DNA of 46,217 nucleotides from a virus. The stretch covers positions 1-46,217 of IMG/VR virus record IMGVR_UViG_3300017963_000374; one strand, written 5' to 3'. Shown here piece after piece: positions 1-18,315 of this stretch (the first letter of the stretch is position 1; the number at the start of each line of letters is the position of its first letter). The notes beneath the pieces were generated by a model that saw only the letters and a program-made list of their open reading frames with translations, searched no databases and was not told where the DNA came from. The position numbers and the translations under genes were made by a program.

Positions 1-20
1 ACACGCCAGGCGAATCCGGT

Positions 21-383
21 ATGGTTATAAGCCAGATCATAGCCACCGTGACAATGACAGATTGCCAGTGTAATAATTACCACGTTCTCTACCCCGGCGA
101 ATTTGGCCGGGAGGATTTGAGCTACAGCACGGCACCTCAGTATACGAGCCGATTGGATTATCTGAGAGAGGCGCAAGAGGTTGGGGAGAGACACCGGGAT
201 ATTGCTTGCCGTTATTTGGACGATGAGGGAAAGCCGACGATACCCGATGAACACATGGTCATTGTCGAAATGTGGTATAATAGTAAGCAGTTGTTAGGTG
301 TACCGATTATCAGTAACCCGTTAACCGACCCGATACCGATTTATTCAAGGGCGGTTATGCGGAAAGTGAGTGGTAGAGAATGA
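21..383 (+). CDS. Hypothetical protein, possibly cut at its 5' end
   Basis: I do not recognise this 120-residue protein. The frame stays open upstream to the window edge and there is no convincing ribosome binding site before the ATG at 21, so the true start may lie outside. The N-terminal part has a hydrophobic strand followed by a Cys-x-Cys (DCQC), and the middle is rich in charged and aromatic residues (YLREAQEVGERHRD). No membrane segment or signal peptide is seen. Its TGA overlaps the ATG of the truncated ParB-like fragment at 380 by the usual ATGA type overlap, so it was probably co-transcribed with the original ParB-like gene. Real coding is likely from the overlap and normal codon use; function unknown. 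Confidence 0.6.
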   Translation: MVISQIIATVTMTDCQCNNYHVLYPGEFGREDLSYSTAPQYTSRLDYLREAQEVGERHRDIACRYLDDEGKPTIPDEHMVIVEMWYNSKQLLGVPIISNPLTDPIPIYSRAVMRKVSGRE

Positions 384-448
384 CACAGATTAAGACCGTT
401 AAAGATTTGATACCGGATAATTGTAATATAAGGTATGTTAGTGTATAA
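380..448 (+). pseudogene. Truncated N-terminus of a ParB-like gene
   Basis: A 22-codon reading frame starts MTQIKTVKDLIPDNCN and stops at TAA 446-448. It matches the beginning of the intact gene at 1283 (MTKEIKTVADLSPDSHN) in protein and partly in DNA. The frame then runs into the promoter of the homing endonuclease gene. I read it as the start of a second, tandem ParB-like gene whose body was lost, or as the old start of the downstream gene left behind when the endonuclease entered. The product, if made, would have no domain. Confidence 0.55.
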
Positions 449-449
449 T
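421..449 (+). promoter_or_regulatory. Sigma70-type promoter of the homing endonuclease
   Basis: TTGTAA at 421-426 and a perfect TATAAT at 444-449 are separated by exactly 17 bp. The start codon of the endonuclease follows at 478, with AGGTGAT as ribosome binding site. The promoter overlaps the end of the truncated ParB-like frame, so the endonuclease appears to have arrived with its own promoter. Confidence 0.7.
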
Positions 450-477
450 ATCATCAAATAAACCAGGTGATGATATT

Positions 478-1290
478 ATGAAAAAGAAGACATATATTTA
501 TGCGCTTGTTGATCCATTTACGTCTATAGTAAGGTATGTTGGAAAATCAAATAATCCAAATGCCAGATTAAGAAGGCATATAAAGGATGGTAAGGACAAT
601 ACAAAATCAGACCACAAAACAAATTGGATAGCTAAGATAATTAGACTTGGCAAGATTCCAGAATTACGTATTTTAGAAATTTGTGATTATAATAATTGGA
701 AAATAAGAGAGAGGTATTGGATAAAAAAATTACGTGATTCCGGGTGTGATTTAACAAATAGTAAGGATGGTGGAGAAGGATTAAATTTATCTCAAGAATC
801 CAGAGATAAAATGAGCAAAGCAAGAATTGGTAAGGTTCCACACAACAAGGGAAAAAAGACATCTGTTGATATAAGAAAAAAACAGAGTGAAGCCGCAAAG
901 AAAAGATGGGAGAATATGTCAGATGAAGATAGGAATAATATACTAAAAAATCTTTCAAATGACGGTTCCCGCCCTGGGTGGAATCACACAAGGGAAGCTA
1001 AGGAAAAAATAAGCAAATCATTAATTGGGAACAAGAGAACTAAGGGGTATAAGCAGACAAACGAAACAAAAATGAAAAGGGCTGAATCACTCAAGGGGCA
1101 TACTGTAACGAGAGAGACAAGAGAAAAAATAGCTAGAAAAAATAGATCATTAAGTATGGATCAGGCAAGAGAAATAAGAAACTTAATATTAAATGGTAAG
1201 CGACAAAGTGATATTGCAAAAATATATGGTGTTAGTAAAACAACCATAAACCAGATAAAATCGAATAAGAGTTACATTGAATATGACTAA
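478..1290 (+). CDS. GIY-YIG homing endonuclease with NUMOD3 repeats and C-terminal HTH
   Basis: A 270-residue free-standing homing endonuclease that would nick or cut DNA at its target site to copy itself. The GIY-YIG nuclease is at residues 6-90: IYA (7-9), YVG (20-22), catalytic Arg 30 and Glu 78 can be placed. NUMOD3-type DNA-binding motifs follow (SRDKMSKARIGKVPHNKGKK near 113-130, EKISKSLIGN near 180, TREKIARKN near 215), then a helix-turn-helix (QSDIAKIYGVSKTTINQIK, about 243-261). The gene is AT-rich and lysine-rich compared with its neighbours, which indicates transfer. Its last codons overlap the ATG of the methyltransferase gene at 1283, and a promoter lies at 421-449. Confident family call; target site unknown. 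Confidence 0.93.
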   Translation: MKKKTYIYALVDPFTSIVRYVGKSNNPNARLRRHIKDGKDNTKSDHKTNWIAKIIRLGKIPELRILEICDYNNWKIRERYWIKKLRDSGCDLTNSKDGGEGLNLSQESRDKMSKARIGKVPHNKGKKTSVDIRKKQSEAAKKRWENMSDEDRNNILKNLSNDGSRPGWNHTREAKEKISKSLIGNKRTKGYKQTNETKMKRAESLKGHTVTRETREKIARKNRSLSMDQAREIRNLILNGKRQSDIAKIYGVSKTTINQIKSNKSYIEYD

Positions 1291-2500
1291 AGAAATAAAG
1301 ACCGTGGCTGATCTTTCACCGGATAGTCACAACGCCAACGCCGGCACCCCACGCGGCCAAAAGATGATTGAGGCCAGTATCCAGGAAGATGGCTTTGGGC
1401 GGCCTGTTCTAGTTGACAAAAACGGTAAATTGATTGCCGGGAATAAAACCATTCAGAGTGTAGCTGATGCCTTTGGAATTGATACAGAGGTTATACTGGT
1501 CAAGACGGACGGCAAAAAGGTAATAGTCCACCAAAGGGAAGATTTGGACTTGGACGATTTGAAGGGGTCGGCGCGGCGGTTGGCTTATCGTGATAACTTG
1601 ACAAGTCACTTTTCTTTTGAGATGGAACCGGCGGTGGTATTGGCAGACTTTGAGGCCGGCTTTGACTTTGACGCGATAGGGTTAGAGGTTGGGGATTTGG
1701 CTGAGTTGTTGCCGGATGTTGATTTTGGGCAGAATGGTGACGGGGGGAAAGATACAGAGCCGCAGATAGACAAGGCCGAGGAGCTAAGGCAAAAGTGGGG
1801 CGTTGAGATTGGGCAGATGTGGCAATTGGGGGAGCATCGCTTGATTTGCGGTGATTGTACGGATGCGGCGGTTGTCGAGCGGGTGATGGGGGGAGAGAAG
1901 GCGGATATTGAAATACACGACCCGCCTTATGGGATGAATTTGGATACTGATTACTCCAAGATGCCAAGCGCAAAAAAAGGAGGCAATAAGGGTTATAAAC
2001 CGGTTAAAGGTGACAATGTTGATTTTGACCCAAGTCATCTATTGTCATCCTCTGCAAATGAATTATTTTTGTGGGGTGCAGATTATTATTGTGAATTGAT
2101 ACCTAATAAAAATGAGGGGACTTGGCTTATTTGGGACAAGAGGGTTGAAGATAAATTTGACGAGATGATTGGGAGTGCGTTTGAGTTAGTATGGTCAAGG
2201 GTAAGGCACAAGAGGCAAATAATTAGATATAATAATACTTTATTTTCTGGAAATTCTAAGGCAAAAAATAAATTGCATCCTACCCAAAAGCCAACAGCCG
2301 TTTATGAATGGCTATTGAATAAATATAGCAAGGAAGGCGATATAAGCGCAGATTTTTATTTAGGCGCAGGCTCTCATTTGTTAGCCTGCCACAACCTAAA
2401 CCGAAAAGCCAGAGCCATCGAAATCGACCCTGGCTATGTCGCTGTTACCCTGCAACGTTTCAAAGATCACACCGGCGTTAACCCAATTTTAATGGATTAA
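1283..2500 (+). CDS. ParB-like domain fused to a DNA methyltransferase
   Basis: The 405-residue protein starts with a ParB/Srx-like domain (about 1-110; IKTVADLSPDSHNAN, then GRPVLVDKNGKLIAGN, the usual ParB box region) and ends in an N6-adenine or N4-cytosine methyltransferase. Catalytic motif IV is DPPY at 213-216; the SAM-binding motif I comes later (DFYLGAGSH, about 357-365), so the motif order is that of the beta class. Motif I is a little diverged from the usual DPFLGSGT. I chose the ATG at 1283, which overlaps the stop of the endonuclease, over the TTG at 1277. Such proteins are frequent beside phage terminases and probably protect phage DNA or mark packaging sites; specificity cannot be read from sequence. 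Confidence 0.88.
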   Translation: MTKEIKTVADLSPDSHNANAGTPRGQKMIEASIQEDGFGRPVLVDKNGKLIAGNKTIQSVADAFGIDTEVILVKTDGKKVIVHQREDLDLDDLKGSARRLAYRDNLTSHFSFEMEPAVVLADFEAGFDFDAIGLEVGDLAELLPDVDFGQNGDGGKDTEPQIDKAEELRQKWGVEIGQMWQLGEHRLICGDCTDAAVVERVMGGEKADIEIHDPPYGMNLDTDYSKMPSAKKGGNKGYKPVKGDNVDFDPSHLLSSSANELFLWGADYYCELIPNKNEGTWLIWDKRVEDKFDEMIGSAFELVWSRVRHKRQIIRYNNTLFSGNSKAKNKLHPTQKPTAVYEWLLNKYSKEGDISADFYLGAGSHLLACHNLNRKARAIEIDPGYVAVTLQRFKDHTGVNPILMD

Positions 2501-2528
2501 CTTTAGCAGATTGCACAGTATAAAAAAA

Positions 2529-2924
2529 ATGAGTGACACAAAGTACGACAGAGAGACAATTTTAGATGCAATTCGAGGCGAGGGCCGCTGGGCACCAACC
2601 GAACCCGGCAAGATTACCAACTCCTTTGGCAATATAACTATTATTGCCCAACGTTTGCAGGTGAGTCGTAACACCGTTTATGCTTATGCCCGCAAGTGGT
2701 CAACGATTGATGAGGCCATTAAAGAGGGTCGCGAAGCATTAGGTGATTTTGTTGAGAATAAGATGGCTCAAAAGATGCTGGGCGGCGATACCACAATGAT
2801 TATCTTTTATGCCAAGACTCAGTTGAGGGGCAGGGGCTATGTGGAACGGCACGAATGGAGCGGCCCGGACGGTGGCGAAATTCCCATCCGTATAGTTGGC
2901 GGTGTGAATCTAGATGATGTATGA
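2529..2924 (+). CDS. terS: Probable terminase small subunit
   Basis: The protein has 131 residues from the ATG at 2529; an upstream TTG at 2511 is less likely. The N-terminal half carries a helix-turn-helix (TIIAQRLQVSRNTVYAYARKW), followed by a helical region and a C-terminal strand (PIRIVGGVNLDDV). This is the layout of phage small terminase subunits, which recognise the packaging site and load DNA onto the large subunit. The end overlaps the large subunit gene by 11 bp, which supports the call. The ribosome binding site is poor, so translation may depend on upstream translation. Identity rests on position and the HTH; no motif is unique to TerS. Confidence 0.7.
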   Translation: MSDTKYDRETILDAIRGEGRWAPTEPGKITNSFGNITIIAQRLQVSRNTVYAYARKWSTIDEAIKEGREALGDFVENKMAQKMLGGDTTMIIFYAKTQLRGRGYVERHEWSGPDGGEIPIRIVGGVNLDDV

Positions 2925-4212
2925 GATTCGCAACGGAAGGCCATCTGAGGCCGACTTTACATTTTACGGTGGGGCGCGTGAATTTGCCACTTATCACGGG
3001 CCGGAGGCATTATTGCACGGCCCAGCGGAAACCGGCAAGACGATAAGCGCCTTAAATAAGCTGCACATTTGCGCGTGTAAATATCCCGGAGCCAGTATTG
3101 TGATTGCCCGTAAAACACGAGCCAGCATTTACGGGTCGGTGTTGGTAACATTCAAGAATAAGGTGTTGGGGCCTAACCCGCCTTGCGAACCATACGGCGG
3201 GGAAAATGAGCCGAAATGGTTTGATTATACAAACAAGTCTAGGATTTGGATTGCCGGGTTTGATAAGTCATCAAAGGTGTTGTCAACAGAGCACGATATA
3301 ATTTACATTAACCAGCCCGATGAGTGCAGTCTTGACGACTGGGAAACAGCAACAACTAGAACAACGGGCCGGGCCGGGAATATGCCATACTCCCAAACGA
3401 TAGGCGACCCGAATCCAACCTATCCCGGCCATTGGATGTATACACGAGGAAATATAAGGATTTTCTATTCAAAACACACCGAAAACCCGATGCTATACGA
3501 CCAGTTAACCGGCAAGATTACCGAACAGGGCAAGCGTACAATTTCAACTCTTGAGGCACTCACCGGAACTAGGCGCAAGCGACTTTATGAAGGCAAACCG
3601 GCGCAAGCCGAGGGCGTGATTTATGAGGATTGGGATGAAGCAATACACCTTATCTATCAAGACAAAGTACCGCAAGGGATCAGCCGGTATATCGCCGGTC
3701 AGGACTGGGGGTACACTCATGCCGGATGTTTGGGTGTATTTGGGATAGACAACGATGGCCGGGCCTATTTGGTAGCCCAGGTTTACCACACAAAAAAAAC
3801 GGTTGACTGGTGGATAGAACGCGCCAAGGAATTGCACAAGGAGTTCAAGATCGAGGCTATAGCCTGCGGGCCAGATCAACCGGCCTATATTGAGGCATAT
3901 AAAAAAGCCGGGCTTAATGCCGTGGCCGCTGATAATTCGGTACTGCCCGGAATTAACGCCGTACAGCAGCGATTAAAACCGGATGACCAGCGCTTGTTTA
4001 TTGTACGGGACTCGTTGCGTTATCCAGATCAGGAACTTATCAGTGCCAAAAAAGCGCATAAAGTTGAGGATGAATTTGCTTCGTATGTTTGGTCCAATAG
4101 CGCGGTGAAAGAAATTCCAGTTAAGGAAATTGATGATGGTCTTGATATGACAAGGTATGCTATAATGCATGTAGATGGGGGCAAACGAAAAATGAAATTT
4201 GTTCACTTATAG
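2914..4212 (+). CDS. terL: Terminase large subunit
   Basis: A 432-residue packaging motor: an ATPase pumps DNA into the prohead and a nuclease cuts it. Walker A is GPAETGKT (36-43), very near the N-terminus; Walker B is IIYINQPDE (129-137) with Asp-Glu at 136-137. The C-terminal RNase H-like nuclease begins at GQDWGYTHAG (first acidic residue Asp 264), a second acidic region lies near ACGPDQPAYI (about 317), and the last is in DDGLDMTRYAI (about 410). The gene overlaps the small subunit by 11 bp and ends with TAG. An extended -10 sequence (TGCTATAAT, ending 4166) near the 3' end may help express the portal, but no good -35 box is present. Confidence 0.93.
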   Translation: MMYEIRNGRPSEADFTFYGGAREFATYHGPEALLHGPAETGKTISALNKLHICACKYPGASIVIARKTRASIYGSVLVTFKNKVLGPNPPCEPYGGENEPKWFDYTNKSRIWIAGFDKSSKVLSTEHDIIYINQPDECSLDDWETATTRTTGRAGNMPYSQTIGDPNPTYPGHWMYTRGNIRIFYSKHTENPMLYDQLTGKITEQGKRTISTLEALTGTRRKRLYEGKPAQAEGVIYEDWDEAIHLIYQDKVPQGISRYIAGQDWGYTHAGCLGVFGIDNDGRAYLVAQVYHTKKTVDWWIERAKELHKEFKIEAIACGPDQPAYIEAYKKAGLNAVAADNSVLPGINAVQQRLKPDDQRLFIVRDSLRYPDQELISAKKAHKVEDEFASYVWSNSAVKEIPVKEIDDGLDMTRYAIMHVDGGKRKMKFVHL

Positions 4213-4223
4213 GATAAAACACT

Positions 4224-6587
4224 ATGGCCGAACCACAACAGAAATCAATTGATACCCCCAAATTTTTAATGCGGCAAGTCCCTTTATGGAACACCCCGGA
4301 ATGGTTAAACGCGGAACGCTGGCGGCGGGTGTGCTACAATCAGCCGGTTTTGCTTGCCTGTCAGGATGCGCTTATCTCTGATGTGATCGCATCGGAATGG
4401 CAAATCCGACCACGAGACGCCAGCCGGGAAGATGAATTATCCGACGAAATAGACCACTACACCAAAGTATTTAATCCTGACATCGGCAGCGGGATTCGAG
4501 GCTTTGACCCGTGGGCAATCAAAGGCTTGCAGGATATGCTCACCTTGCCGGTGGGCTGGAATAATGAAATCGTGCGTTATCCGGTTAATAACGGCCCTTT
4601 TCGCAATCCTCACCCCAAAGGCCACGTCCACAAATTGGTGTATATTGACGGGGCGACCATTGCCCCAACTTATGATTCCAAGCTGATAATGGTACAATCT
4701 ATCAAGTCTGATATGACCCGGCGCATCTATTTTGAAGATCGGGAGATCGGGCGGATTCTTTGGTCGCCACGGGTTGAAATGGAAATGAGTGGTTACGGGA
4801 TGGCCCCACCGGAACGGGCTTATTTATCCGTTGAATCGTTGTATCGGGGTGATCGGTATTATGCCAATCTTTTGCTGGATACACCAGAGGCCGGATTACT
4901 CGACTTAATGGACATATCCCTGGATGATATGAACGACTGGGCGAAATCACAAAGGGAACTGTTAACCGGCGTTGATCCATTCAAAATCACCATTCTTTAC
5001 GACCACGAAAAACCGGCCCAATTTATCCCCTTTGGCCGACCACCAACGGACATAATGTTCGATGAGGTGATGACCAAAAATAAGCAACTTGTCCACGCCA
5101 TGCACGGGCTAACATTGACTGACACCGGCCTGGGTGATCCTGAAAAGACACTTGCCGGGAGTATCCGAGATGAGCGCCGCAGCCAACGTAGCGGATTCAG
5201 CCGGGATAGAGAGGCTATTAAAACATTTGCCGACAATGAGGTACTTCCCCCTTATCTTGAGTTTGTCTGGATTCTGAATGATGAAGAGCGCCAAACCCAA
5301 AAAGGACGTTCTTTTGTGATGTATGCCAACGCGCTAAAAAGTCTACGCGAGGCCGGGGCGCTGGATGCCGAAAGCGTGCAAGCAATATTAAAGCGTGAAG
5401 GGTTTGTGGTTGAGGATATAGAATTACCAACAACTTTGCTAATACCAACCACAAACGGTGGCAATGGAATGAATCAAAATGAAGTTGATAGAACACCAGC
5501 GCAAAGCGGTGGCCGGGGTGATATTAATGTGACTCGCGGCCCGGCACTAGGCGACCCGTCAATTTCTGCCGCACCAACCCAAGCGCCAACATTTGACCAG
5601 TTAGCCATTATCTTGCGTGGCGGGTTTGACGGGGTATTGAATGAGGCCACTGACGTGAGGATGACTCGCTTAATCAAAAAGGCAACCCGGCTATTATATC
5701 CTCAAACACAAAAGGCGCTCATTCGATTGTCAGATGTAGACATACCCGACTATTTAGAGCAACGGAATCTATTATGGCTGCAACAAGAAAACGCCTTTGA
5801 CGAATTGCCGGATGTGATGAAGGCGTCACAAGATATTCTTGACGAACTAGACGGAACCCTTGAGGATGACAAATGGTATGAGTTACCGCTTAAAATTGCC
5901 ACGTCAATTGCTGTGGTTTTGCAAGCGGCCTATAGTCAGGGGGCGACGCTGGCCGCAGAGCAAGCCTGGGAATTTCTCTATACGGAGGGAGTTGTCTCGA
6001 CTCCCTCCATCCCGGCTTTTAGTTTCAATTTGTCCAATCCGGCTACTATCGAACAGCTAGAGGCGAAAGCGGCACAACTGGTAACGCGGGTAAATGATGG
6101 CACCAAGTTTTATCTAAAGCGCATCATAACAAGCGGAGTTGAGGAAGGATTATCGACTCCCAACATTGCCCAAATGGTCAAAGACGGTGTTGATGTAGAG
6201 GCTATTTTGCGCGAGTCCGGCTATACTGAGCAAACCATCAACCGCGCCAGGATGGAAATTGAGCAAATGACCGACAACCGCATAAATTCAATCGCCAATA
6301 CCGAGATCGCCAGGGCTGAAACTGATGGCCGGTTAGGACAATGGTCAGAAATGGGATTGACGAAAAAGCAATGGGTACACACCGGCCCGGATACACCTTG
6401 CCCGATTTGTCAGCGTAATATTGACCTGGGCTATGTGTCAATTGATTATATGTATGACAGTGTATTTGGTAGCGCCGATACACCCGGCCCACCGGCTCAC
6501 CCGCAGGTTGACCACTGTCACATTGAATTTGATGAGGATGAGTTGATGGACAAAGGGCCGGAGTTGAATGTTTGGGATGGTAGTTAA
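4224..6587 (+). CDS. Portal protein fused to a MuF-type head morphogenesis domain
   Basis: The 787-residue protein has two parts. Residues 1 to about 400 look like a phage portal protein, the dodecameric ring through which DNA enters the head (WRRVCYNQPVLLACQDALISDVIASEW; APPERAYLSVESLYRGDRYYANLLL). After a low-complexity linker (about 410-455) a helical region leads into a MuF/SPP1 gp7-like domain (about 640-787): NTEIARAETDGR, then KQWVHTGPDTPCPICQRN and HPQVDHCHIEF, the typical Cys and His of this family. In most phages these are two adjacent genes; here they are one frame without a stop. MuF proteins are minor head proteins, sometimes carriers of toxin domains; no toxin domain is visible here. 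Confidence 0.85.
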   Translation: MAEPQQKSIDTPKFLMRQVPLWNTPEWLNAERWRRVCYNQPVLLACQDALISDVIASEWQIRPRDASREDELSDEIDHYTKVFNPDIGSGIRGFDPWAIKGLQDMLTLPVGWNNEIVRYPVNNGPFRNPHPKGHVHKLVYIDGATIAPTYDSKLIMVQSIKSDMTRRIYFEDREIGRILWSPRVEMEMSGYGMAPPERAYLSVESLYRGDRYYANLLLDTPEAGLLDLMDISLDDMNDWAKSQRELLTGVDPFKITILYDHEKPAQFIPFGRPPTDIMFDEVMTKNKQLVHAMHGLTLTDTGLGDPEKTLAGSIRDERRSQRSGFSRDREAIKTFADNEVLPPYLEFVWILNDEERQTQKGRSFVMYANALKSLREAGALDAESVQAILKREGFVVEDIELPTTLLIPTTNGGNGMNQNEVDRTPAQSGGRGDINVTRGPALGDPSISAAPTQAPTFDQLAIILRGGFDGVLNEATDVRMTRLIKKATRLLYPQTQKALIRLSDVDIPDYLEQRNLLWLQQENAFDELPDVMKASQDILDELDGTLEDDKWYELPLKIATSIAVVLQAAYSQGATLAAEQAWEFLYTEGVVSTPSIPAFSFNLSNPATIEQLEAKAAQLVTRVNDGTKFYLKRIITSGVEEGLSTPNIAQMVKDGVDVEAILRESGYTEQTINRARMEIEQMTDNRINSIANTEIARAETDGRLGQWSEMGLTKKQWVHTGPDTPCPICQRNIDLGYVSIDYMYDSVFGSADTPGPPAHPQVDHCHIEFDEDELMDKGPELNVWDGS

Positions 6588-6740
6588 ATGACCACCAACC
6601 AATGCACCGAATCCCAATTTGCCCTTGAGATCCGCCGCGCCTTAATTATGATCGCCTCGGCTATAAAAAAGCGGTATGGGGTGGCGTGGCCGTTGGTGGT
6701 GTTGAAGGGTGAGGGAGATAAGGAGCATTTGAAAAATTAA
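6588..6740 (+). CDS. Small hypothetical protein
   Basis: A 50-residue frame begins at the ATG directly after the portal stop codon and encodes a basic helix (FALEIRRALIMIASAIKKRYGVAWPLVVLKG). It has no recognised domain. The zero-base spacing to the portal gene suggests translational coupling. Its last bases contain the -35 box of the promoter at 6729-6757. Confidence 0.55.
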   Translation: MTTNQCTESQFALEIRRALIMIASAIKKRYGVAWPLVVLKGEGDKEHLKN

Positions 6741-6757
6741 GATAGTTGAGTTATAAT
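6729..6757 (+). promoter_or_regulatory. Strong sigma70-type promoter
   Basis: TTGAAA (6729-6734) and a perfect TATAAT (6752-6757) are 17 bp apart. Transcription would start near 6764, directly before the structured RNA. A second, weaker candidate is TTGCTA (6766-6771), 17 bp, TAGACT (6789-6794) with an extended TGC. Confidence 0.65.
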
Positions 6758-6763
6758 GTTGGT

Positions 6764-6860
6764 AATTGCTAACCCGACCTAAATATGCTAGACTTTAATA
6801 AAGTCCGTTTCGGCCAACACCATTAATGGGTTGGGTTAGCAACCGAAGCGGGCCTTTTTT
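6764..6860 (+). ncRNA. Short structured RNA ending in a pseudoknot-capable terminator
   Basis: About 97 nt lie between the promoter and a T6 tract (6855-6860). The segment 6803-6813 pairs with 6843-6853 over 11 bp (three G-U pairs) to make the terminator stem. Segment 6766-6781 pairs with 6827-6842 over 16 bp (14 Watson-Crick, two G-U). The order 5'A, 5'B, 3'A, 3'B makes an H-type pseudoknot with the two 3' strands directly adjacent, or two competing states (terminator versus antiterminator). No open frame longer than a few codons is present. The moron-like gene at 6874 follows 13 bp later. It could be a free small RNA or an attenuator for that gene. Confidence 0.6.
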
Positions 6861-6873
6861 ATTTAGGTGAATT

Positions 6874-7266
6874 ATGACAAATATCCAGCAATCACTATTT
6901 GATTATGCACAACTTGATACGGAAACAAGAATTGTAGTGCAGCAAGAGGATAAAGAATTTGATAGGAATATGGGTGAGGCGAGTAATAGTTTTATCTTTG
7001 CTTGCCAAAATTTAGGAAAAATACACGAGGCATTGAAATACAAGCGCCCTGGGTTTGACGAGTATTGCAGAAACAAAAAAGGATTATCACGTGCAACAGC
7101 TTATAAAATGCTGAATGTCGCAAAAATGTGTCTAGATTCTGGACACATTCCAATTGATAGCAAAGAGGCGTTGTACCTTTTGGCCGAACCTTCCACACCA
7201 GATGAGGCGAGTATTACACATTTAGCAAAAATTGTTAGAAAATGGTTCCTGTGGGCGAATAAATAA
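6874..7266 (+). CDS. Moron-like DUF3102-type DNA-binding protein
   Basis: The 130-residue protein has a helical N-terminus (NSFIFACQNLGKIHEAL) and a central region with the pattern FDEYCRNKKGLSRATAYKMLNVAKM, which resembles the DUF3102/HTH-like proteins of phages in which a lysine-rich helix-turn-helix is followed by a Leu-rich tail. A regulator is a reasonable guess. The gene lies within the head genes but is flanked on both sides by a promoter-RNA-terminator unit, which is the arrangement of a moron: an extra gene expressed on its own. Base composition is more AT-rich than the capsid genes. Ribosome binding site AGGTGA is only 3 nt from the ATG. Confidence 0.6.
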   Translation: MTNIQQSLFDYAQLDTETRIVVQQEDKEFDRNMGEASNSFIFACQNLGKIHEALKYKRPGFDEYCRNKKGLSRATAYKMLNVAKMCLDSGHIPIDSKEALYLLAEPSTPDEASITHLAKIVRKWFLWANK

Positions 7267-7288
7267 TAATTTATCAATAATTATCTTG

Positions 7289-7317
7289 TTGACGTTACCC
7301 CATAACTATGCTAAAAT
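7289..7317 (+). promoter_or_regulatory. Sigma70-type promoter with extended -10
   Basis: TTGACG (7289-7294) and TAAAAT (7312-7317) are 17 bp apart, with TGC directly before the -10 box. It lies after the moron-like gene and before a small RNA/terminator unit. Confidence 0.7.
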
Positions 7318-7323
7318 GAATTA

Positions 7324-7412
7324 TGTAACTAAATAGATTCAGGCTCCATCTGCAAAGATCGCGCCCGTTGTCAAAGGCTCCAATTAAGCGCCCAAGACAC
7401 CGGGCGTTTTTT
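7324..7412 (+). ncRNA. Short RNA unit with intrinsic terminator and duplicated segment
   Basis: The transcript from the promoter at 7289-7317 would end at T6 (7407-7412). The terminator stem pairs 7362-7372 with 7396-7406 (10 of 11 positions). The pattern AGGCTCCA followed by GCGCCC occurs twice (from 7341 and from 7375), so the second GCGCCC can also pair with GGGCGT just before the U-tract, which gives two alternative hairpins. The next gene (7445) has its own good ribosome binding site (AAGGAG). Either a small RNA or a leaky leader for the head genes. Confidence 0.5.
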
Positions 7413-7444
7413 ATTTTAGCCAACTAACCATAAGGAGTTTACAA

Positions 7445-7708
7445 ATGGCGACAGCAACGAAAAAATCAGTTAAGGCAAATGTGGAAGTCGAGCCGGTTTT
7501 GCAAGACATCCGGCACGTGGTCAGAACGCTTGGCCCAATCACCGACGACGCCAAAGGCGTACAAAGTTTTGCCGACTTTGAATTGTATATCAAGGAAACC
7601 TATCTTGACGATGGCTGGGACGTGAAACACGTTCAAGTGGGCAACAACCCCAACCAGAACTTCCAAGAGGCCAACATTCTTTATGTTCTGGTGAAACGTG
7701 CCGCTTAA
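7445..7708 (+). CDS. Small hypothetical protein in the head module
   Basis: An 87-residue protein with ribosome binding site AAGGAGT 8 nt before the ATG. The sequence has alternating strands and helices (DIRHVVRTLGPITDDAKGV, then ANILYVLVKRAA) and no membrane segment. The fold hints at a small alpha/beta protein; I do not recognise the family. It overlaps the next gene by 11 bp, so the two are likely co-translated. The promoter and RNA unit at 7289-7412 directly precede it. Confidence 0.7.
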   Translation: MATATKKSVKANVEVEPVLQDIRHVVRTLGPITDDAKGVQSFADFELYIKETYLDDGWDVKHVQVGNNPNQNFQEANILYVLVKRAA

Positions 7709-8009
7709 GGACTTCGCCTTATTTCTGCTTATCGGGCGACTTCTTATCTGGCTAACCCAAACCAACGGGTTAATTGAGCCGGTATGGAAACGTCACGAAA
7801 AGTTAGAGGAATTGCGCGAGTGCGATTTATGCCTTGGCTTTTGGGTATATTTGGCAATGGCAATCTTTAGATGGGAACGGCCATTCAAGCAATACCCGAA
7901 GCCGGTTGAGTGGGGCATACTCGCAGCGGTAGCCAGTTTTGCAATGCACTTGATTAGATTGGGCTGGGGGCAGAAGTTTCACGGAGTGGTTATAGACGAT
8001 GCCATATAG
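7698..8009 (+). CDS. Small membrane protein (DUF1360-like)
   Basis: The 103-residue protein uses a GTG start overlapping the previous gene. It has hydrophobic segments at about 4-20 and 75-93 and a weaker one near 49-58, with a motif ECDLCLGFWVYLAMA between them. The Cys-x-x-Cys followed by GFW is typical of DUF1360-type small membrane proteins found in several phages beside head genes. Function is unknown; a role at the host membrane is possible. It overlaps the protease gene by 11 bp and ends with TAG. Confidence 0.65.
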   Translation: MPLKDFALFLLIGRLLIWLTQTNGLIEPVWKRHEKLEELRECDLCLGFWVYLAMAIFRWERPFKQYPKPVEWGILAAVASFAMHLIRLGWGQKFHGVVIDDAI

Positions 8010-9669
8010 TAAAAGTAACCCGCCAACATTTGCCAAAAATATGCCCACCGGGGCGCAAAAGATAGCCATTGACACCGCTAACGCGATTCTTGATGAGGGC
8101 GGCAAAGAAGAAGACGCTATTCGCGCCGCCATTGCCAACGTGAAAAAGGAATACAAAAAGAGTGGTGATAAGTGGGTGCCAAAAGCCGCGCTGGCTGAAA
8201 TTGAGTTGATTATCACCAAAGCCAACGTTGGGGCGGATGGGACTCCCCGTTGGGCAGCAACAACCAGCGACACCGGCCCGGACAAGGCCGGGGAATCCGC
8301 GTCGATGGCCTTATTCCAAAACTGGATAGAGCGAGTCGAGAAAAATACAACCATTGACTTTTTGCCGGAACCGCGCACCCCGTTTTTGGGCGTGTCGCAT
8401 TACCCGTCAATGGATGGGTATGGTGAGGCCGGCCCAACCGAAAAAATGTATATTGACGGCAATCGATTCAAGGCCGCCGGATCGTTCTATAACGATGAAG
8501 AGCATCCAATTGGCAAGGCATTATTTGAGGCCGTTTGCGCTGAGCAATCATTGATTAAGCGGGGCGAACAAATAGACGAACCGATGAGAATAAGCGCCGC
8601 GTGGTGGGACTTACAACACTCGCACGGCGATTTTGTTTTCACACGCAAAAATTTAACAGACAAATGCCCATTATGCCAAAAGGGAGAACCCCGGCATTTT
8701 TTAGATGGGCAACTTGACCATTGGGCCGTGACTCGCGTCCCAATGAATCCCCGTACCGATTTAGAATTGGAGGAAAAGTCAATGGCTAACAAAAGGACCC
8801 GTAAAGAAGATGCGGAATCTATCGTTGGGCCGCAAATGGCCGAAAATCTGGAAGCGCACTCAGATGCCGTGGTGGGCAAGTCGGACACCGAAGAGGCAAC
8901 CGAGGCAATGGTTATTAAGGCGGAAGATGAAGCGCTAGAGCCGGATGTCGAAAAGACAGACGAAGGGATGATGGAGCGCCCATTTGGTGGGGCTATGGAT
9001 TTAGAACGTGCCCGCGCCTGGATTTCCGAAGTGGACAAACTCAATACCACGATGGACTACTGGCAAATGTTTGATGTGGTCATGATGAACATTTTGGAAT
9101 CTGATGAAGAAGACAAAATGGGGATGATGAAAAAGGCCATTTCAGACTTTGGTGAAATGGTAGACACCGTTAAGGCAGGATTATCCGACCCCGTTATGAG
9201 GTCGTTAATTAGTAACCCGGAACAAACTCTTACAGGAGGTAATGAAATGTCCGAGGAAAAAGCAACTCAGGAAACCCCAGCGGAAGCGACTCAGGATGTG
9301 CCTGAAGGTGATGTGTTTGATGCCTTGCGGCGTGAAGTTCAGGGCGCGATGACCGCCGGGGATCGGGAAAAGGCCGCCGACGCGATTCAGAAATCATTCA
9401 GCGCCTTTGCCGGTGTTGTGCGCGGCGAACTTGACACCAAGTATCCGCCCAACGTTGAACAGATGGTTCAGGAAACCGTTGCCAAGTCAATGGCCCCCTT
9501 TGCTGAAAAGCTGGATTTGGTGTTGGCAAAAATGAATCAGGCACCGGCACCGGCCCAACCCGTGCAAAAGTCCATCTCTATGAACCCGGCTGAAAACCTG
9601 GGAGAATACAAGGTGGAAAAATCATCTATCCGCGATTTAGCGCGGCGGTCTGTAGGATTGCCGCAGTAA
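7999..9669 (+). CDS. Head maturation protease with ChaB-like N-terminus and scaffold tail
   Basis: The 556-residue protein has three parts. Residues about 10-60 resemble the ChaB-like domain found in phage head proteins (MPTGAQKIAIDTANAILDEGG...KKSGDKWVPK). Residues about 110-255 form an alpha/beta region (FLGVSHYPSMDGYGEAG, RISAAWWDLQHSHGDFVF) in the place of a prohead protease; His 212 and nearby Ser/His residues are possible catalytic residues, but I cannot assign the triad. The rest is acidic, helical and low-complexity, like a scaffold. Two in-frame ATGs with strong ribosome binding sites (8782, 9247) could yield scaffold alone. The major capsid gene follows at 9789. Confidence 0.7.
   Translation: MPYSKSNPPTFAKNMPTGAQKIAIDTANAILDEGGKEEDAIRAAIANVKKEYKKSGDKWVPKAALAEIELIITKANVGADGTPRWAATTSDTGPDKAGESASMALFQNWIERVEKNTTIDFLPEPRTPFLGVSHYPSMDGYGEAGPTEKMYIDGNRFKAAGSFYNDEEHPIGKALFEAVCAEQSLIKRGEQIDEPMRISAAWWDLQHSHGDFVFTRKNLTDKCPLCQKGEPRHFLDGQLDHWAVTRVPMNPRTDLELEEKSMANKRTRKEDAESIVGPQMAENLEAHSDAVVGKSDTEEATEAMVIKAEDEALEPDVEKTDEGMMERPFGGAMDLERARAWISEVDKLNTTMDYWQMFDVVMMNILESDEEDKMGMMKKAISDFGEMVDTVKAGLSDPVMRSLISNPEQTLTGGNEMSEEKATQETPAEATQDVPEGDVFDALRREVQGAMTAGDREKAADAIQKSFSAFAGVVRGELDTKYPPNVEQMVQETVAKSMAPFAEKLDLVLAKMNQAPAPAQPVQKSISMNPAENLGEYKVEKSSIRDLARRSVGLPQ
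8782..9669 (+). CDS. Possible nested scaffold product (long form)
   Basis: In-frame ATG at 8782 is preceded by GGAGGA (8769-8774) with 7 nt spacing. It would give a 295-residue acidic, helical protein lacking the protease part, similar in logic to lambda Nu3 inside C. The start begins MANKRTRKEDAES, right after the protease-like region. Support is the strong ribosome binding site and its position at the domain border; expression is not shown. Confidence 0.4.
   Translation: MANKRTRKEDAESIVGPQMAENLEAHSDAVVGKSDTEEATEAMVIKAEDEALEPDVEKTDEGMMERPFGGAMDLERARAWISEVDKLNTTMDYWQMFDVVMMNILESDEEDKMGMMKKAISDFGEMVDTVKAGLSDPVMRSLISNPEQTLTGGNEMSEEKATQETPAEATQDVPEGDVFDALRREVQGAMTAGDREKAADAIQKSFSAFAGVVRGELDTKYPPNVEQMVQETVAKSMAPFAEKLDLVLAKMNQAPAPAQPVQKSISMNPAENLGEYKVEKSSIRDLARRSVGLPQ
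9247..9669 (+). CDS. Possible nested scaffold product (short form)
   Basis: In-frame ATG at 9247 follows a near-perfect AGGAGGT (9234-9240) by 6 nt, better than most starts in this window. The product would be 140 residues: an acidic N-terminus, helices (AADAIQKSFSAFAGVVRGEL, VAKSMAPFAEKLDLVLAKM), a Pro/Ala linker and a basic C-terminus (SSIRDLARRSVG), as in phage scaffolds that bind the capsid with a basic C-terminal tail. Confidence 0.5.
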   Translation: MSEEKATQETPAEATQDVPEGDVFDALRREVQGAMTAGDREKAADAIQKSFSAFAGVVRGELDTKYPPNVEQMVQETVAKSMAPFAEKLDLVLAKMNQAPAPAQPVQKSISMNPAENLGEYKVEKSSIRDLARRSVGLPQ

Positions 9670-9691
9670 CCAAACCATACCAACGTGTGCA

Positions 9692-9720
9692 TTGTTAACC
9701 CGGCGTGGGGCCAATATAGG
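9692..9720 (+). promoter_or_regulatory. Promoter of the major capsid gene
   Basis: TTGTTA (9692-9697), 17 bp, TATAGG (9715-9720). The leader contains a 7-bp hairpin (9746-9752 with 9758-9764, loop GGGGT) and then TTAAGGAG before the ATG at 9789. A dedicated promoter fits the high demand for capsid protein. Confidence 0.5.
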
Positions 9721-9788
9721 CTAGACCGTTAAGCCGGGGGGATGCGTTAAACGGGGTGTTTAACACAATCTATTAAGGAGATTATAAA

Positions 9789-10967
9789 ATGACTACTCCA
9801 AACGCCCCAACAGGTGAACAAGTTTTGGATTTGGGCGGCGGTGGTAATGAGGCTTTTGTTAGCCGAACCACTGACCCGCTTATTTTGCCCCAGCCGTATT
9901 CAAGCCCGGCGGATTTTTCGGCGCAATACCCGACTCCGCTGGATACGACTGAACTGGTGGCAATGTGTGAAGAAATCAGCTTGTGGCAGGCTATCCCGGA
10001 ATTGACCACCGGCCTGCAACAAGAAACGTGGCGCGAACTTAACGAACTGGCTTTTACTTCCGGCTCGGCTTATATCAGCTTTGCTGATGGCGAATGTCCC
10101 GAAGAATACAGCCACGATGGCGACAACACCACGATTACCCTGAAAAACATTGGTGCCAAAAAGTCACTGTCAATCAGTGACATTATGCACAGCGCGGCGG
10201 TTGCGGCTGCCGGTTGGAACGGTATCAATCGCCTTGTGGGCGGCCCTCCGTCAAGTGAAGGTATGCCCGGCGGGGCTAATGGCGGCACGTTTATGCAAGA
10301 AACCGTTGCTGACGTGAAAGAAAAAGAGATCCGCCTTGCCTCAACTCTGGTTATGAATGGCTGGGATCGTCTGTTAGCTGAGGGTGACGCCACCAGTAAT
10401 AGCCTTGAGTTTGACGGGATTGAAAATCTGGTGACTACCGATTGTGCCCACAATAACACATCAACTCCGTCCGGTACGTTCAGCGCGGCAACCTATGATC
10501 GTTTCTTGGCTGACAGTTGCGCCAAGCCAACCACGATTATGGGCCATTCAAGCGCCATTCAGGAAATGATGGCCGGGTACTTCCAGTTGGGATACCAGGG
10601 CAGCCAGTTGGTTAACTTTAACGATGGTGACCGCATCACCCCGGGTTATAACTTCGCCAGCTTTGTTAATACCGGCGTTGGTCGGTTAGCCGTGGTAGCT
10701 GACTATAACTTCAACCGGGATGCCGCAGGTGGGGCAACCTTCCTGGGTACATTGTTCGGGATGCGGATGACCCACAACGGGGTTCCTCTGGTGTATCGCC
10801 GCACTCAGATTCCATTTTCGGTACGTGACCTTGTGCCGGGTTGTACTGCGGTATCGTTTGAGGTTTGGGCCAAAACAGCGTTGATTGTCAAACACTGTTG
10901 CGCCCATAGCCGGTTTACCGCTGTGTTTAACGGCACGATTAACACGACTTGCCCGCAGATTGGGTAA
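9789..10967 (+). CDS. Major capsid protein (probably HK97 fold)
   Basis: A 392-residue protein directly downstream of the protease/scaffold gene, with its own promoter and ribosome binding site AAGGAG. Length, place and features such as a flexible N-terminus, a long helix-rich middle (GIGAKKSLSISDIMHSAAVAAAGWNG region, KEKEIRLASTLVMNGWD) and a C-terminal beta-rich part (TAVSFEVWAKTALIV) fit HK97-fold capsid proteins. It has at least eight cysteines including a CC pair near the C-terminus (VKHCCAHS), unusual for a capsid protein and possibly relevant to stability. Family assignment is by context. Confidence 0.75.
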   Translation: MTTPNAPTGEQVLDLGGGGNEAFVSRTTDPLILPQPYSSPADFSAQYPTPLDTTELVAMCEEISLWQAIPELTTGLQQETWRELNELAFTSGSAYISFADGECPEEYSHDGDNTTITLKNIGAKKSLSISDIMHSAAVAAAGWNGINRLVGGPPSSEGMPGGANGGTFMQETVADVKEKEIRLASTLVMNGWDRLLAEGDATSNSLEFDGIENLVTTDCAHNNTSTPSGTFSAATYDRFLADSCAKPTTIMGHSSAIQEMMAGYFQLGYQGSQLVNFNDGDRITPGYNFASFVNTGVGRLAVVADYNFNRDAAGGATFLGTLFGMRMTHNGVPLVYRRTQIPFSVRDLVPGCTAVSFEVWAKTALIVKHCCAHSRFTAVFNGTINTTCPQIG

Positions 10968-10985
10968 CAGTTAATAGTTAATATC

Positions 10986-11009
10986 AAGGGGTGGGGAAAC
11001 TCACCCCTT
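10986..11009 (+). terminator. Hairpin after the capsid gene, weak terminator
   Basis: AAGGGGTG (10986-10993) pairs perfectly with CACCCCTT (11002-11009), loop of 8 nt, 18 bp after the capsid stop. There is no U-tract behind it, so it may act as a partial terminator or as a 3' stabiliser of the capsid mRNA. Confidence 0.4.
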
Positions 11010-11028
11010 AATCAATAGGGGGCATCCT

Positions 11029-11280
11029 ATGATAACGAATGATGATGGTTGGATAGCGTTAAAACATCGCCAGCCAACGCAGGTGCTAACCAAAAAAACA
11101 CCATCCGGCCACGATTATGTTTTTGTGCCGAAAGCCAATATTTCAATGGCCTGGGTAAGGCCGGATGATGTTGACAACCTCTTAGCTAGAAAATCGGGTT
11201 GTTGCGGTAATAAGAAAAAATCTTACACCTATGCCAATGAAGATGATGTAAGGCGTTGGACGAATGGCGGGGGGCGATGA
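11029..11280 (+). CDS. Small GCCG-motif protein
   Basis: An 83-residue protein of a kind seen in phage head regions: ISMAWVRPDDVDNLLARKSGCCGNKKKSYTYANEDDVRRWTNGGG. The Cys-Cys-Gly with neighbouring basic residues recurs in the protein encoded at 22768-23100 (RGESGCCGSSGKPRNYFELV), and both follow the same VxxLxxxK-SGCCG-K-Y layout. Metal binding by paired subunits or a head-tail role are possible; neither is shown. Its stop overlaps the start of the first sugar-island gene. Confidence 0.65.
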   Translation: MITNDDGWIALKHRQPTQVLTKKTPSGHDYVFVPKANISMAWVRPDDVDNLLARKSGCCGNKKKSYTYANEDDVRRWTNGGGR

Positions 11281-11873
11281 TGAACGTTATCGACTTTGAC
11301 CGCTGGCGTCAAGATTATGCCCAACTGACATACAAAGACCAGTTGGCATTTTACAATCAGGTAGCCATAGATCACCCTTTACAGCACGGCTTTGATGAAG
11401 CGGCTTTTGAGGATTTTATAAAACCGCTGGGTGAGGCTGATGTCATAGAATTGGGCGGCTGGAAAGGTGAACTGGCTGCTTTTGTTTTGCCCAAATTGCC
11501 AAAGGTTCGGAAATGGCTTAATTACGAAATATCAGAGCAGGCGATAAAAGAAACGTATTGTAAAGATGAACGCTATCACCCGCTTATCCCGTCTGACTTT
11601 TTGTGGAATATTGAAATTCCAAAAGCCGATGTATTTATCAGTAGTCACACTATAGAGCATATCACAGCTAAGGAACTCGATAAACTATTCTCGAAATTGC
11701 CGGTCAAGCATATCGGATTACAAGCGCCGCTTGGGGATAATGGCACAGATTGGGCCGGGTATTATGGTAGCCATATTTTAGAAATTGGATGGAATAGCGT
11801 TATTGAGATGTTATCCGGTTACGGTTTCAGCTTGACCGTTTCAAGCGGCGAGTTTAGGGGGTTTGCGCGATGA
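11277..11873 (+). CDS. SAM-dependent methyltransferase-like protein
   Basis: From the ATG at 11277 (overlapping the upstream TGA) the protein has 198 residues. DVIELGGWKGELAAFVL resembles motif I of class I SAM methyltransferases and WLNYEIS the acidic strand after it; FISSHTIEHI matches the usual H-x-x-EH region of sugar-type methyltransferases. It opens a tightly packed set of genes for sugar transfer, so methylation of a virion glycan is plausible. The ORF could also be read from a TTG at 11256, but the ATG keeps the ATGA overlap. Confidence 0.65.
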   Translation: MMNVIDFDRWRQDYAQLTYKDQLAFYNQVAIDHPLQHGFDEAAFEDFIKPLGEADVIELGGWKGELAAFVLPKLPKVRKWLNYEISEQAIKETYCKDERYHPLIPSDFLWNIEIPKADVFISSHTIEHITAKELDKLFSKLPVKHIGLQAPLGDNGTDWAGYYGSHILEIGWNSVIEMLSGYGFSLTVSSGEFRGFAR

Positions 11874-12553
11874 CTACTATCTCAACTGTCTCTATCATAA
11901 CTCCCGTTTGGAACCGTGCTGATCTTACCTATAATTTTCTCAATCAGAATTTGCACTATCTGGGAGATTATGAGGGCGCTGAGTGGATCATTGTCAATAA
12001 CGGCTCAAACGATGGTACACCCGGGGTCCTAAAGGCTTTTGAAAACAAAGCCAATGTAAAGATAATAAATAATGATACAAACATCGGCTTTGGGGCTGCC
12101 AACAATCGGGCGGCTAAACTCTCAAAAGCGGATGTTTTTATTTTTATCAATAATGATGTGATAACAAGCGGCGATTATATCACGCCAATTATGGACACAT
12201 TGCAACGTGTGCCCAATGCAATCACCGGGGCTGAGTTGCTCAATTATGATACCGGATGGAACGTGTTTGACGGGAAGATCATTAGCTATATTCACGGATG
12301 GTGCATGGCGATGCGGGCTGACGTGTTTTATGATTTGGGCGGCTTTGATGAGCGATACACGCCGGGAGATTATGAGGATATTGACATCTGTTATGCGGCA
12401 ACACAAAAGGATTATGTCCTGATGGCCTTGAATCTACCGCTTGAACATATGTCAGGACAAACGGGCCGACAACTACCAAACCGGCGCGAAATAACAAACA
12501 AACACCGGGGGCTATTTGCTGAGAAATGGAGTCTTAAAAATGAACCTGGATAA
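11870..12553 (+). CDS. Family 2 glycosyltransferase
   Basis: A 227-residue GT-A-fold glycosyltransferase that would pass a sugar from a nucleotide donor to an acceptor. SIITPVWNRADLTYNFLNQ is the N-terminal strand and helix; WIIVNNGSNDGT carries the donor-binding region; FIFINNDV holds the metal-binding motif (NND in place of DxD). GGFDERYTPGDYEDIDIC is the usual acceptor-side GGFDE..ED motif, so the catalytic Asp is present. The gene overlaps its neighbours by 4 and 14 bp, within one operon. Confidence 0.85.
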   Translation: MTTISTVSIITPVWNRADLTYNFLNQNLHYLGDYEGAEWIIVNNGSNDGTPGVLKAFENKANVKIINNDTNIGFGAANNRAAKLSKADVFIFINNDVITSGDYITPIMDTLQRVPNAITGAELLNYDTGWNVFDGKIISYIHGWCMAMRADVFYDLGGFDERYTPGDYEDIDICYAATQKDYVLMALNLPLEHMSGQTGRQLPNRREITNKHRGLFAEKWSLKNEPG

Positions 12554-12815
12554 ATTGAACATACCAAGTAATGTAAAGCGCAACCTTGAGAAAAACGATT
12601 TGACTATGCAAAAGCTAGCTACCGCTTCACCCTCTCAACTGTCAGTTATTCCCGGCATTGGTCAGAAAACAGCAGAGAGTGTAATCAAGGCCGCGCGCGA
12701 AGTTGTCAATACTGAATTGTTAAAAGAATCTGCTATGCCGGAATATAGACCGTCTCCACCGGAGCCAACCCAAAGGTCGGTACGGGTACGGCGGATTTAT
12801 GGGGAAACAGTATGA
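12540..12815 (+). CDS. Helix-hairpin-helix protein
   Basis: A 91-residue protein starting at ATG 12540 inside the end of the glycosyltransferase gene. The HhH motif is LATASPSQLSVIPGIGQKTAESVIKAARE, with IPGIG as hairpin, which binds DNA backbone without sequence preference. The C-terminal 30 residues are proline- and arginine-rich. A DNA-binding protein between glycosyltransferases is odd; the HhH may be used for protein-protein contact. Confidence 0.65.
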   Translation: MNLDKLNIPSNVKRNLEKNDLTMQKLATASPSQLSVIPGIGQKTAESVIKAAREVVNTELLKESAMPEYRPSPPEPTQRSVRVRRIYGETV

Positions 12816-13306
12816 AATTAAATATAGGCGCAGGCCCAAGCGGTGAAGGCGATTACAAGGTTGACATTGTACCCTATCCCGGTGTAACCGACATCGTAGA
12901 CATTGCGGTGGAGCCACTACCTTATGATGATAATTTCTTTGATGAAGTTGAGGCCAATCAGGTATTAGAACACGTCCCGAATACCATCTATTATAAAGAG
13001 GATGGTAAATTTATCAGGCGGTATTGCCGGATTGAGGCAATGCGCGAGATTCACCGGGTACTTAAGCCGGGGGGCATCCTCCGGGCCAGTGCGCCATACC
13101 AATGGCCGGAATGGGCGCAAGACCCGACTCATACCGGCGTGCCGTGGAACCGTGAAGCGTTCTCTTATTTCTGCGGAATGTGGGGCGGCAATAAACCTGG
13201 CGATTTTGCCCACGACTCTTACGGCATCAATTTTGAGTTTGAGATGATGAAGGGTGACTATGAAGGGGCACATCTGTTTGTCGAGTTAAGAAAGCCGATG
13301 AAATGA
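12812..13306 (+). CDS. Class I SAM-dependent methyltransferase
   Basis: A 164-residue protein beginning MKLNIGAGPSGEGDYKVDIVP, a clear SAM-binding motif I and acidic loop. DEVEANQVLEHVPN corresponds to motif IV and REIHRVLKPGGILRASAPY to the motif V/VI region of Methyltransf_11-type enzymes. The domain is short but complete. ATGA-type overlaps bind it into the sugar operon; the substrate is likely a sugar or peptide of the virion or of the host, but this is inference. Confidence 0.85.
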   Translation: MKLNIGAGPSGEGDYKVDIVPYPGVTDIVDIAVEPLPYDDNFFDEVEANQVLEHVPNTIYYKEDGKFIRRYCRIEAMREIHRVLKPGGILRASAPYQWPEWAQDPTHTGVPWNREAFSYFCGMWGGNKPGDFAHDSYGINFEFEMMKGDYEGAHLFVELRKPMK

Positions 13307-14001
13307 GGATAGTCGCACTGGTTAGGTCATTAAACGAGCAAGGTTGGATAGGTCGCTGCATATCTAACTACCAATGGTGTGATAAGGTTTTGCTTGCCGA
13401 TGGTGGCTCAACAGATGATACACTGAAAATAGCTAACAGATTCGGCAATGTGTCAATTCGGTATTTTGACGGGCGCCTTGAATTACCGGATGGCTCATTT
13501 ATGAATCCCGAACCCGCACACCTTAACTTTTTGTTTGATTGGGCTGATGAAGAACAAGTAGACTGGGTATTGATTGCCGACTGTGACACGTGGCCTAATT
13601 TGGCCTTACAGAGAAACGCAAGGGATTTTATCAATCGCGCCGACATAACCGGCGCGGAGGGTATCTTTACAACTTTTATCTATTTATGGGGGGAAGATAA
13701 ATATTTCCCCAAGATTAACGAGGCAGGCCCACAGCAATGGGTATGGCGGGCTGATTTAGGATTACGCTATCCGACAACGGGGAATAATAATTTTGAAGTT
13801 GTCGCGCCGGGACCGGATAAAGCTAATTCTATGATACTAGAAAAACCTTATGTCGTAATGCACTATGTATCAGACGAAAAAAGAGAACTCGAAAAAATGA
13901 AACGTTATGAAGCCTGGGGGCATCCAAAAACGCATCTACTTGAGAGTATTTACGCGCCACCGGAGCCGTTACCAGATTGGGTTAGGGAGTGTCAAGTATG
14001 A
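13303..14001 (+). CDS. Family 2 glycosyltransferase
   Basis: A 232-residue GT-A protein: VALVRSLNEQGWIGRCISN at the N-terminus, KVLLADGGSTDDTLKIAN for donor binding, WVLIADCDTWPN with the DxD (Asp-Cys-Asp) metal motif. It resembles the subgroup that handles a single sugar step and lacks membrane helices, so it acts in the cytoplasm. It overlaps both neighbours (4 bp each side or so), in the same operon. Confidence 0.85.
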   Translation: MRIVALVRSLNEQGWIGRCISNYQWCDKVLLADGGSTDDTLKIANRFGNVSIRYFDGRLELPDGSFMNPEPAHLNFLFDWADEEQVDWVLIADCDTWPNLALQRNARDFINRADITGAEGIFTTFIYLWGEDKYFPKINEAGPQQWVWRADLGLRYPTTGNNNFEVVAPGPDKANSMILEKPYVVMHYVSDEKRELEKMKRYEAWGHPKTHLLESIYAPPEPLPDWVRECQV

Positions 14002-14885: not shown

Positions 14886-15238
14886 GCTTTAATATCTTAT
14901 CCAACAAAACCGGCAAAGTCACAAAGTTTTTTGATGAGCGAACCGGGAAAACAGTAAAACGGCAAGACCAAATATTTGTACCGGAATGGGAGCAAATGGT
15001 TCCAACCGCGCCGTATGATGAGCATTTCATTTATGAAAACCCGGACAAAACCAAAGGCGCTCCCTCATTCCGTTGTACCTGCGGCTCGTTTGGTATCGTT
15101 GTGCCACCGTTTGGAAAAAATAGAATGTTTGTTTGTCATCATCACACAACCTATGGATTTCATACCACGTCAATGGTCAATAAAAAAGACGTTGAACGTG
15201 GTAATACTAAGATATTTAAGGGGCGAAAATGGGCCTAA
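14882..15238 (+). CDS. Small zinc-site protein of unknown function
   Basis: A 118-residue protein with FRCTCGSFGIVVPPFGKNRMFVCHHHTTYGFH, where C-x-C and CHHH could bind one metal ion. I do not recognise a family. Its position within the sugar operon suggests that it helps with the same pathway or is simply carried along. It overlaps the genes on either side (4 bp before, 10 bp after). Confidence 0.6.
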   Translation: MSFNILSNKTGKVTKFFDERTGKTVKRQDQIFVPEWEQMVPTAPYDEHFIYENPDKTKGAPSFRCTCGSFGIVVPPFGKNRMFVCHHHTTYGFHTTSMVNKKDVERGNTKIFKGRKWA

Positions 15239-17435: not shown

Positions 17436-17438
17436 GTG

Positions 17439-18299: not shown

Positions 18300-18315
18300 T
18301 ACAGGAGCGTAAGAA

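Follow-up and report, generated by a model that had tools for sequence, protein, structure and literature searches.

RydC (Rfam RF00505; PDB 4V2S chain G) is a small RNA in which two helices interlock in the order A-B-A'-B' ahead of a U-tract, with the loop of the terminator pairing to an upstream strand. The available text of one study reports that opening this pseudoknot shortens the life of the RNA (PMC4337610), and excerpts of another describe RydC as the only knotted RNA known (PMC11218946). A precedent in gene layout is RCd22/abiF, for which the accessible portion of the report gives one promoter, a structured RNA, a Rho-independent terminator, a Shine-Dalgarno sequence and the gene, most transcripts stopping at the terminator (PMC12373285). 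Phage leaders provide further cases. A pseudoknot in the 5' leader of T4 gene 32 controls the gene, according to the excerpted account (PMC3014915), and the available part of the work on T4-type homing endonucleases places RNA structure immediately ahead of the genes for free-standing endonucleases; at seg43(25) it is a stable hairpin that precedes the ribosome site and leaves it exposed (PMC2988022).

We analysed a stretch of 46,217 bases that makes up the whole of the IMG/VR virus record IMGVR_UViG_3300017963_000374 (hereafter the window), in which an earlier note had marked two terminator RNAs of interlocked design. The first (unit 1) separates a 50-aa reading frame, which follows the portal gene, from a 130-aa gene (Table 1). 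The A-B-A'-B' pairing proposed for it was confirmed exactly, helix A comprising 16 bp (14 Watson-Crick and 2 G-U pairs) and the terminator helix B 11 bp (9 Watson-Crick and 2 G-U pairs). Its promoter scores 11/12, the top of 41 matches in a promoter scan of bases 1-20000. When helix B forms, the terminator loop is predicted to fold into an apical hairpin, C; A:A' and hairpin C are mutually exclusive because both use 6827-6834. The sequence TATTTAGGT overlaps the Shine-Dalgarno of the next gene, and its exact complement consists of the 3' end of the first strand of helix A and its flank. A third pairing between them is thus conceivable in the read-through RNA and may add translational control.

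Table 1. Coordinates of the two units of the window, the features around them and possible helix D sites in related phages
Feature	Position	Strand	Remarks
Unit 1, promoter, sigma-70-type TTGAAA-17-TATAAT	6729-6757	+	predicted RNA start ~6764, at helix A
Unit 1, RNA	6764-6860	+	~97 nt if terminated; ends predicted from promoter and U-tract
Unit 1, helix A 5' strand	6766-6781	+	begins at ~+3
Unit 1, ACCTAAATA	6777-6785	+	exact complement of TATTTAGGT at 6860-6868
Unit 1, helix B (terminator) 5' strand	6803-6813	+
Unit 1, apical hairpin C in terminator loop	6814-6834	+	6814-6822 with 6827-6834; predicted B-state fold
Unit 1, helix A 3' strand (A')	6827-6842	+	sits in terminator loop
Unit 1, helix B 3' strand (B')	6843-6853	+	abuts A', 0 nt between
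Unit 1, C then U-tract TTTTTT	C at 6854, TTTTTT 6855-6860	+
Shine-Dalgarno-like AGGTG behind unit 1	6866-6870	+
130-aa gene	6874-7266	+	no family assigned
Unit 2, promoter TTGCAA-17-TATGAT with TG	40989-41017	+	9/12
Unit 2, helix A 5' strand	41070-41080	+	A' 41146-41156, 11 bp
Unit 2, helix B 5' strand	41085-41118	+	B' 41160-41193, 34 bp with G-U, then U-tract
54-aa gene behind unit 2	41234-41398	+
Replication-initiation O-like gene behind unit 2	41680-42480	+	DnaC-like gene next, at 42497
Possible helix D site, L148	8962-9065
Possible helix D site, L141	15742-15642	minus
Possible helix D site, L122	8016-8130
Possible helix D site, L122	13599-13705

The second unit, which the earlier note had located at 41024 and credited with the same architecture in different sequence, bears out that description: the plan is common to both, the sequence is not, and it forms the second clear match of a scan of both strands for a gapless A-B-A'-B'-T5 arrangement. 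That scan returned three matches in the window, at 41070 (score 90.5), at 6766 (62.0) and one at 38.5. The note was to be given up if such matches proved as frequent in shuffled sequence; among 100 dinucleotide-shuffled windows none reached 55, the best scoring 49. The helix A score of unit 1 was reached by none of 20,000 locally shuffled segment pairs, and helix A of unit 2, judged by itself, stands out less (16 of 5,000 local shuffles score as high). A loose, bulge-tolerant version of the scan was dropped, its output being mostly noise. No copy of the unit 1 sequence was found in phage sequences, its own record holding the single instance, and Rfam gave no match in the window at gathering score, with neither unit near threshold.

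Related phages were found by capsid protein query (17 loci, then 44); a portal protein query found no relative, and a capsid profile search of genome contigs found no provirus. The resulting survey covered the window and the records of 29 relatives, fetched in stretches (111 stretches, 1.98 Mb with overlaps). A U-tract-anchored scan yielded eight matches at a score of at least 56 as compared to 0.5 per shuffled set (ten sets), and six as compared to 0.1 when a promoter of at least 9/12 was added. In a promoter-anchored scan, where the U-tract is not required, eight matches scored at least 62 and none did so in four shuffled sets; twelve further shuffled sets peak at 61. Among promoter-anchored matches of at least 54, helix A begins 4-9 nt past the -10 box in 7 of 13 real cases and in 0 of 13 from the twelve shuffled sets, and five or more of the eight bases past B' are T in 6 of 13 and 0 of 13, respectively. 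With both scans combined, 11 strong units occur in 7 of 30 records: the window (units 1 and 2), G007 (L031a, L032), G014 (L040), G018 (L116), G020 (L124, L178, L179), G026 (L141a) and G028 (L149). They follow the order promoter, A, B, A', B', U-rich tail, usually then a Shine-Dalgarno and start codon; the plan is common, the sequence is not, and loop lengths vary widely.

For closer comparison, a hand list of 13 units was used that takes in two weaker ones, L148 (52.5) and L141b (53.5 in the U-tract-anchored scan). L148 and L169, one unit in two similar records, were counted once, and L031b (56.0, promoter-anchored) was left out. Before counting, L056 and L049 (promoter-anchored, at least 54) were dropped as chance matches, and L047, L167, L120 and L028 were removed from the U-tract-anchored matches of at least 50. 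Lambda and 50 kb each of BcepMigl and Moonbeam, taken as controls, contain no promoter-anchored match of 46 or more; their U-tract-anchored matches reach 50.5, without a promoter. Among 28 other viral loci, a phage contig found without the capsid query holds a weaker promoter-anchored unit (L188:2766-2890, score 46) before an HNH-type gene, and the remaining matches there, mostly AT-rich, were taken for chance. The earlier proposal of a family of RNA elements rather than an accident is supported, since promoter-bearing units recur in related phages far above the shuffled background and two homologous leaders show two-sided changes (see below).

Two other kinds of RNA-like sequence were noticed in these records. 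On the minus strand of L031, 5200-4600, about four promoter and structured-RNA units stand in tandem within 600 bases, and two or more follow the A-B-A'-B' plan. An RNA-like repeat of ~130 nt occurs at L015:4111-4260, on the L031 minus strand at 4719-4571 and in L030, with several copies in one phage; two copies are 80% alike, an exact 21-mer is found in a second contig of the same sample, and Rfam gave no match at E up to 1.

With hand-trimmed stems, T occupies five or more of the eight positions after the stem in 12 of the 13 listed units. An initial count had suggested that many units lack a U-tract; it used automatically extended stems and was discarded upon the recount. L149 has no U-rich tail, and that of L179 is weak, only TTTCTGTA. 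Membership in the family put forward in the earlier note thus does not require a strong terminator. A start codon with a Shine-Dalgarno-like sequence follows 18-45 nt behind 10 of the 13 units and 3 nt behind L124, and no qualifying start lies within 200 nt of L031a or L141a. The terminator thus stands between promoter and start codon, as expected of a leader attenuator, in unit 1 and in 10 of the 13. Replication genes are situated 0 to 1.9 kb behind five units: O-like then DnaC-like for unit 2, O-like directly for L040 and at 0.85 kb for L116, initiation/DnaD-like at 1.9 kb for L032 and DnaB-like at 1.25 kb for L141a. Another five precede HNH-type genes, assigned by Pfam for L124 (HNH_3) and L148 (Endonuclease VII), by matches to phage HNH genes for L178, as its paralogue for L179 and by eye for L141b, where a 59-aa remnant resembles L148. 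Behind unit 1, L149 and L031a there is no gene of a known family, or no gene.

Record G020 encodes two paralogous endonucleases, 51% identical, with homologous leaders L178 and L179. Between these leaders, 10 of the 11 helix A pairs are preserved, two of them through two-sided changes (in the inner part, 4 of 4 ungapped pairs do not change). Of 15 ungapped helix B pairs, an automatic alignment shows 11 preserved, five through two-sided changes, and four broken. The seven two-sided changes across both helices suggest selection on pairing, a good but not deep case drawn from one sequence pair. A possible third helix, D, crossing A and B in the order A-D-B-A'-D'-B', was seen in the endonuclease leaders L178, L179, L148 and L141b; its count used an ambiguous anchor, and nothing is claimed from it.

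The 130-aa protein encoded behind unit 1 has no Pfam, NCBIfam or PADLOC match, one weak PHROG match (E 0.059) and no relative in the viral contigs, phage sequences or 31 records searched. Unit 1 may plausibly control its gene, as suggested earlier, given that a Shine-Dalgarno-preceded start codon is usually found 18-45 nt past the end of a unit. A further promoter (TTGACG-17-TAAAAT) and terminator, with ~90 nt between them and without the A-B-A'-B' plan, occupy 7289-7412, just upstream of an 87-aa gene at 7445; by eye, the corresponding gene has a promoter and terminator upstream in L014 and L015 and a terminator in L012. Elsewhere in the window, a GIY-YIG/NUMOD3 homing-type endonuclease gene (478-1290) with a promoter match just upstream adjoins a ParB-methylase-like gene and the terminase genes.

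Sequences and statistics attest to the promoter and U-tract, to helices that interlock, to recurrence in related phages, to two-sided changes in a single homologous pair and to a location that is usually just in front of a gene. From these we propose, as an even call, that each unit would be a 5' leader attenuator throttling the gene behind it. The first bases of the RNA (A) complement the loop of B:B', an intrinsic terminator set between promoter and gene. A:A' would form first because A' is made before B', and in unit 1 would also take half of a strand needed by hairpin C, such that RNA polymerase would meet a terminator already handicapped by an internal competitor. The majority of transcripts would end there as short RNAs able to lock into a RydC-type pseudoknot, and a set fraction would read into the gene. 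Any protein or RNA binding A would shift the ratio of stopping to read-through, and the same device would serve before replication blocks and inserted genes.

Folding calculations bear on this scheme. In a pseudoknot-free fold of unit 1 from the promoter start, A has -30.6 kcal/mol and B plus C -26.0 kcal/mol, and in the growing RNA A forms before B' exists. In 10 of the 14 units, B beats A at pseudoknot-free equilibrium, which would make A a transient competitor there and not a stable antiterminator, or else the helices would coexist as a pseudoknot. By hand estimate, units with a long B, such as L032 (helices of 18 and 33 bp, linkers of 4, 4 and 0), can hardly hold both helices complete. We had also considered that a unit might tell promoter-started from read-through RNA, an attractive idea for unit 1; of the 14 units only unit 1 (noisily) and L148 fit, and the idea was rejected.

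The late leader of lambda, which we take to be pR'-tR' (6S RNA), resembles the units when its sequence is read: promoter, short leader, long-loop terminator, then genes. In tR' (L210:44700-44780) a loop 6-mer is complementary to sequence just upstream, the same plan in small, though a 6-bp pairing is easily due to chance. Lambda uses protein Q; unlike there, no antiterminator family is found among the matches of the window proteins searched. Compared with the units, the T4 gene 32 leader is under translational control by the gene's own protein and no terminator is named in the available text, and the T4-type homing endonuclease leaders are simple hairpins, mostly hiding the ribosome site, with no pseudoknot mentioned in the excerpts (PMC2988022).

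The units share with RydC an A-B-A'-B' pseudoknot whose second helix is an intrinsic terminator, which upholds the layout described in the earlier note and removes its novelty, the helix plan being already known. Indeed, rydC of MG1655 has the same A-B-A'-B'-U order and is recovered by the same scan (A of 7 bp and B of 9 bp, then T-rich, as compared to 16 and 11 bp, and up to 34, here). These likenesses, together with a reported need of the RydC pseudoknot for stability (PMC4337610, as excerpted), favour a free-standing small RNA of that kind, acting in trans or on a host chaperone with the next gene incidental. We nonetheless hold this to be unlikely. RydC leaves 5' bases unpaired ahead of A, and a seed has been proposed there, whereas A of unit 1 leaves no unpaired 5' seed. 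The units, unlike RydC, have a Shine-Dalgarno and a gene behind them, in phages, and stand repeatedly just before replication or HNH genes; replication genes behind five of the 13 are hard to explain for a free small RNA gene. Phage genes mostly run one way, and a same-strand gene close behind a unit is for that reason partly expected. The RF00505 covariance model, which gives rydC itself 92.5 bits, found no match in the window units, L122, L148 or L031. A different function, in which a pseudoknot at +1 protects the message against decay that depends on the 5' end, with termination secondary, fits the start of A at about +1 in many units and the helices kept by L149 and L179 with little or no U-tract. 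The U-rich tails of 12 of the 13 listed units speak against it, as does the distance of A from the start in unit 2 and L032 (52 and 120 nt past the -10 box), and we consider it quite improbable.

In position, the units are like RCd22/abiF and type III leaders, including a terminator between RNA and gene, and the gene behind them differs with the unit. An RNA that binds the product of the next gene and keeps it in check, in the manner of AbiF or type III antitoxin RNAs, would suit the layout shared with RCd22/abiF in the accessible report (PMC12373285). Such a role is nonetheless very improbable: neither window unit contains any direct-repeat family such as the tandem repeats of type III systems, the AbiF RNA motif (RF03085) gave no match at E up to 5, and Pfam, NCBIfam and PADLOC matched no ToxN/AbiQ-like toxin to the gene behind unit 1. 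No AbiF/ToxN-like gene was found behind the window units, no defence family matched the window genes searched, and the downstream genes include replication initiators and methylases. By the criteria examined, the units belong to neither RydC nor AbiF/type III and at most would work like them. That the repeats are accidental, or protein-binding sites acting as DNA, would agree with the want of common sequence between the window units and of copies of unit 1; the shuffle tests, the promoter placement, the U-tract enrichment and the two-sided changes leave this reading hardly any probability.

The leader attenuator could be taken further. In such a reading, a terminator whose loop is already paired to the 5' end of the RNA would have to thread, or else break the first helix, in order to close; two helices of at least a full turn would make the finished RNA a true knot. 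To our knowledge, few natural RNAs combine two crossing helices as long as 11 to 34 bp. We regard as rather unlikely the full version, in which these phage leaders would be switches working by RNA topology and a standard throttle carried by replication blocks and by genes of mobile endonucleases. Knots in RNA are nearly unknown, according to the available text (PMC11218946). No description of this class was found in the literature on pseudoknots with terminators, phage and endonuclease leaders, and knots, which is weak evidence of absence with subscription journals thinly covered. If the attenuator reading is true, the units would form a class of phage leader RNAs with diverse sequences, which family models overlook since conservation is confined to the pairing plan, and they make testable the question of whether pairing of the 5' end with a terminator loop can set read-through.
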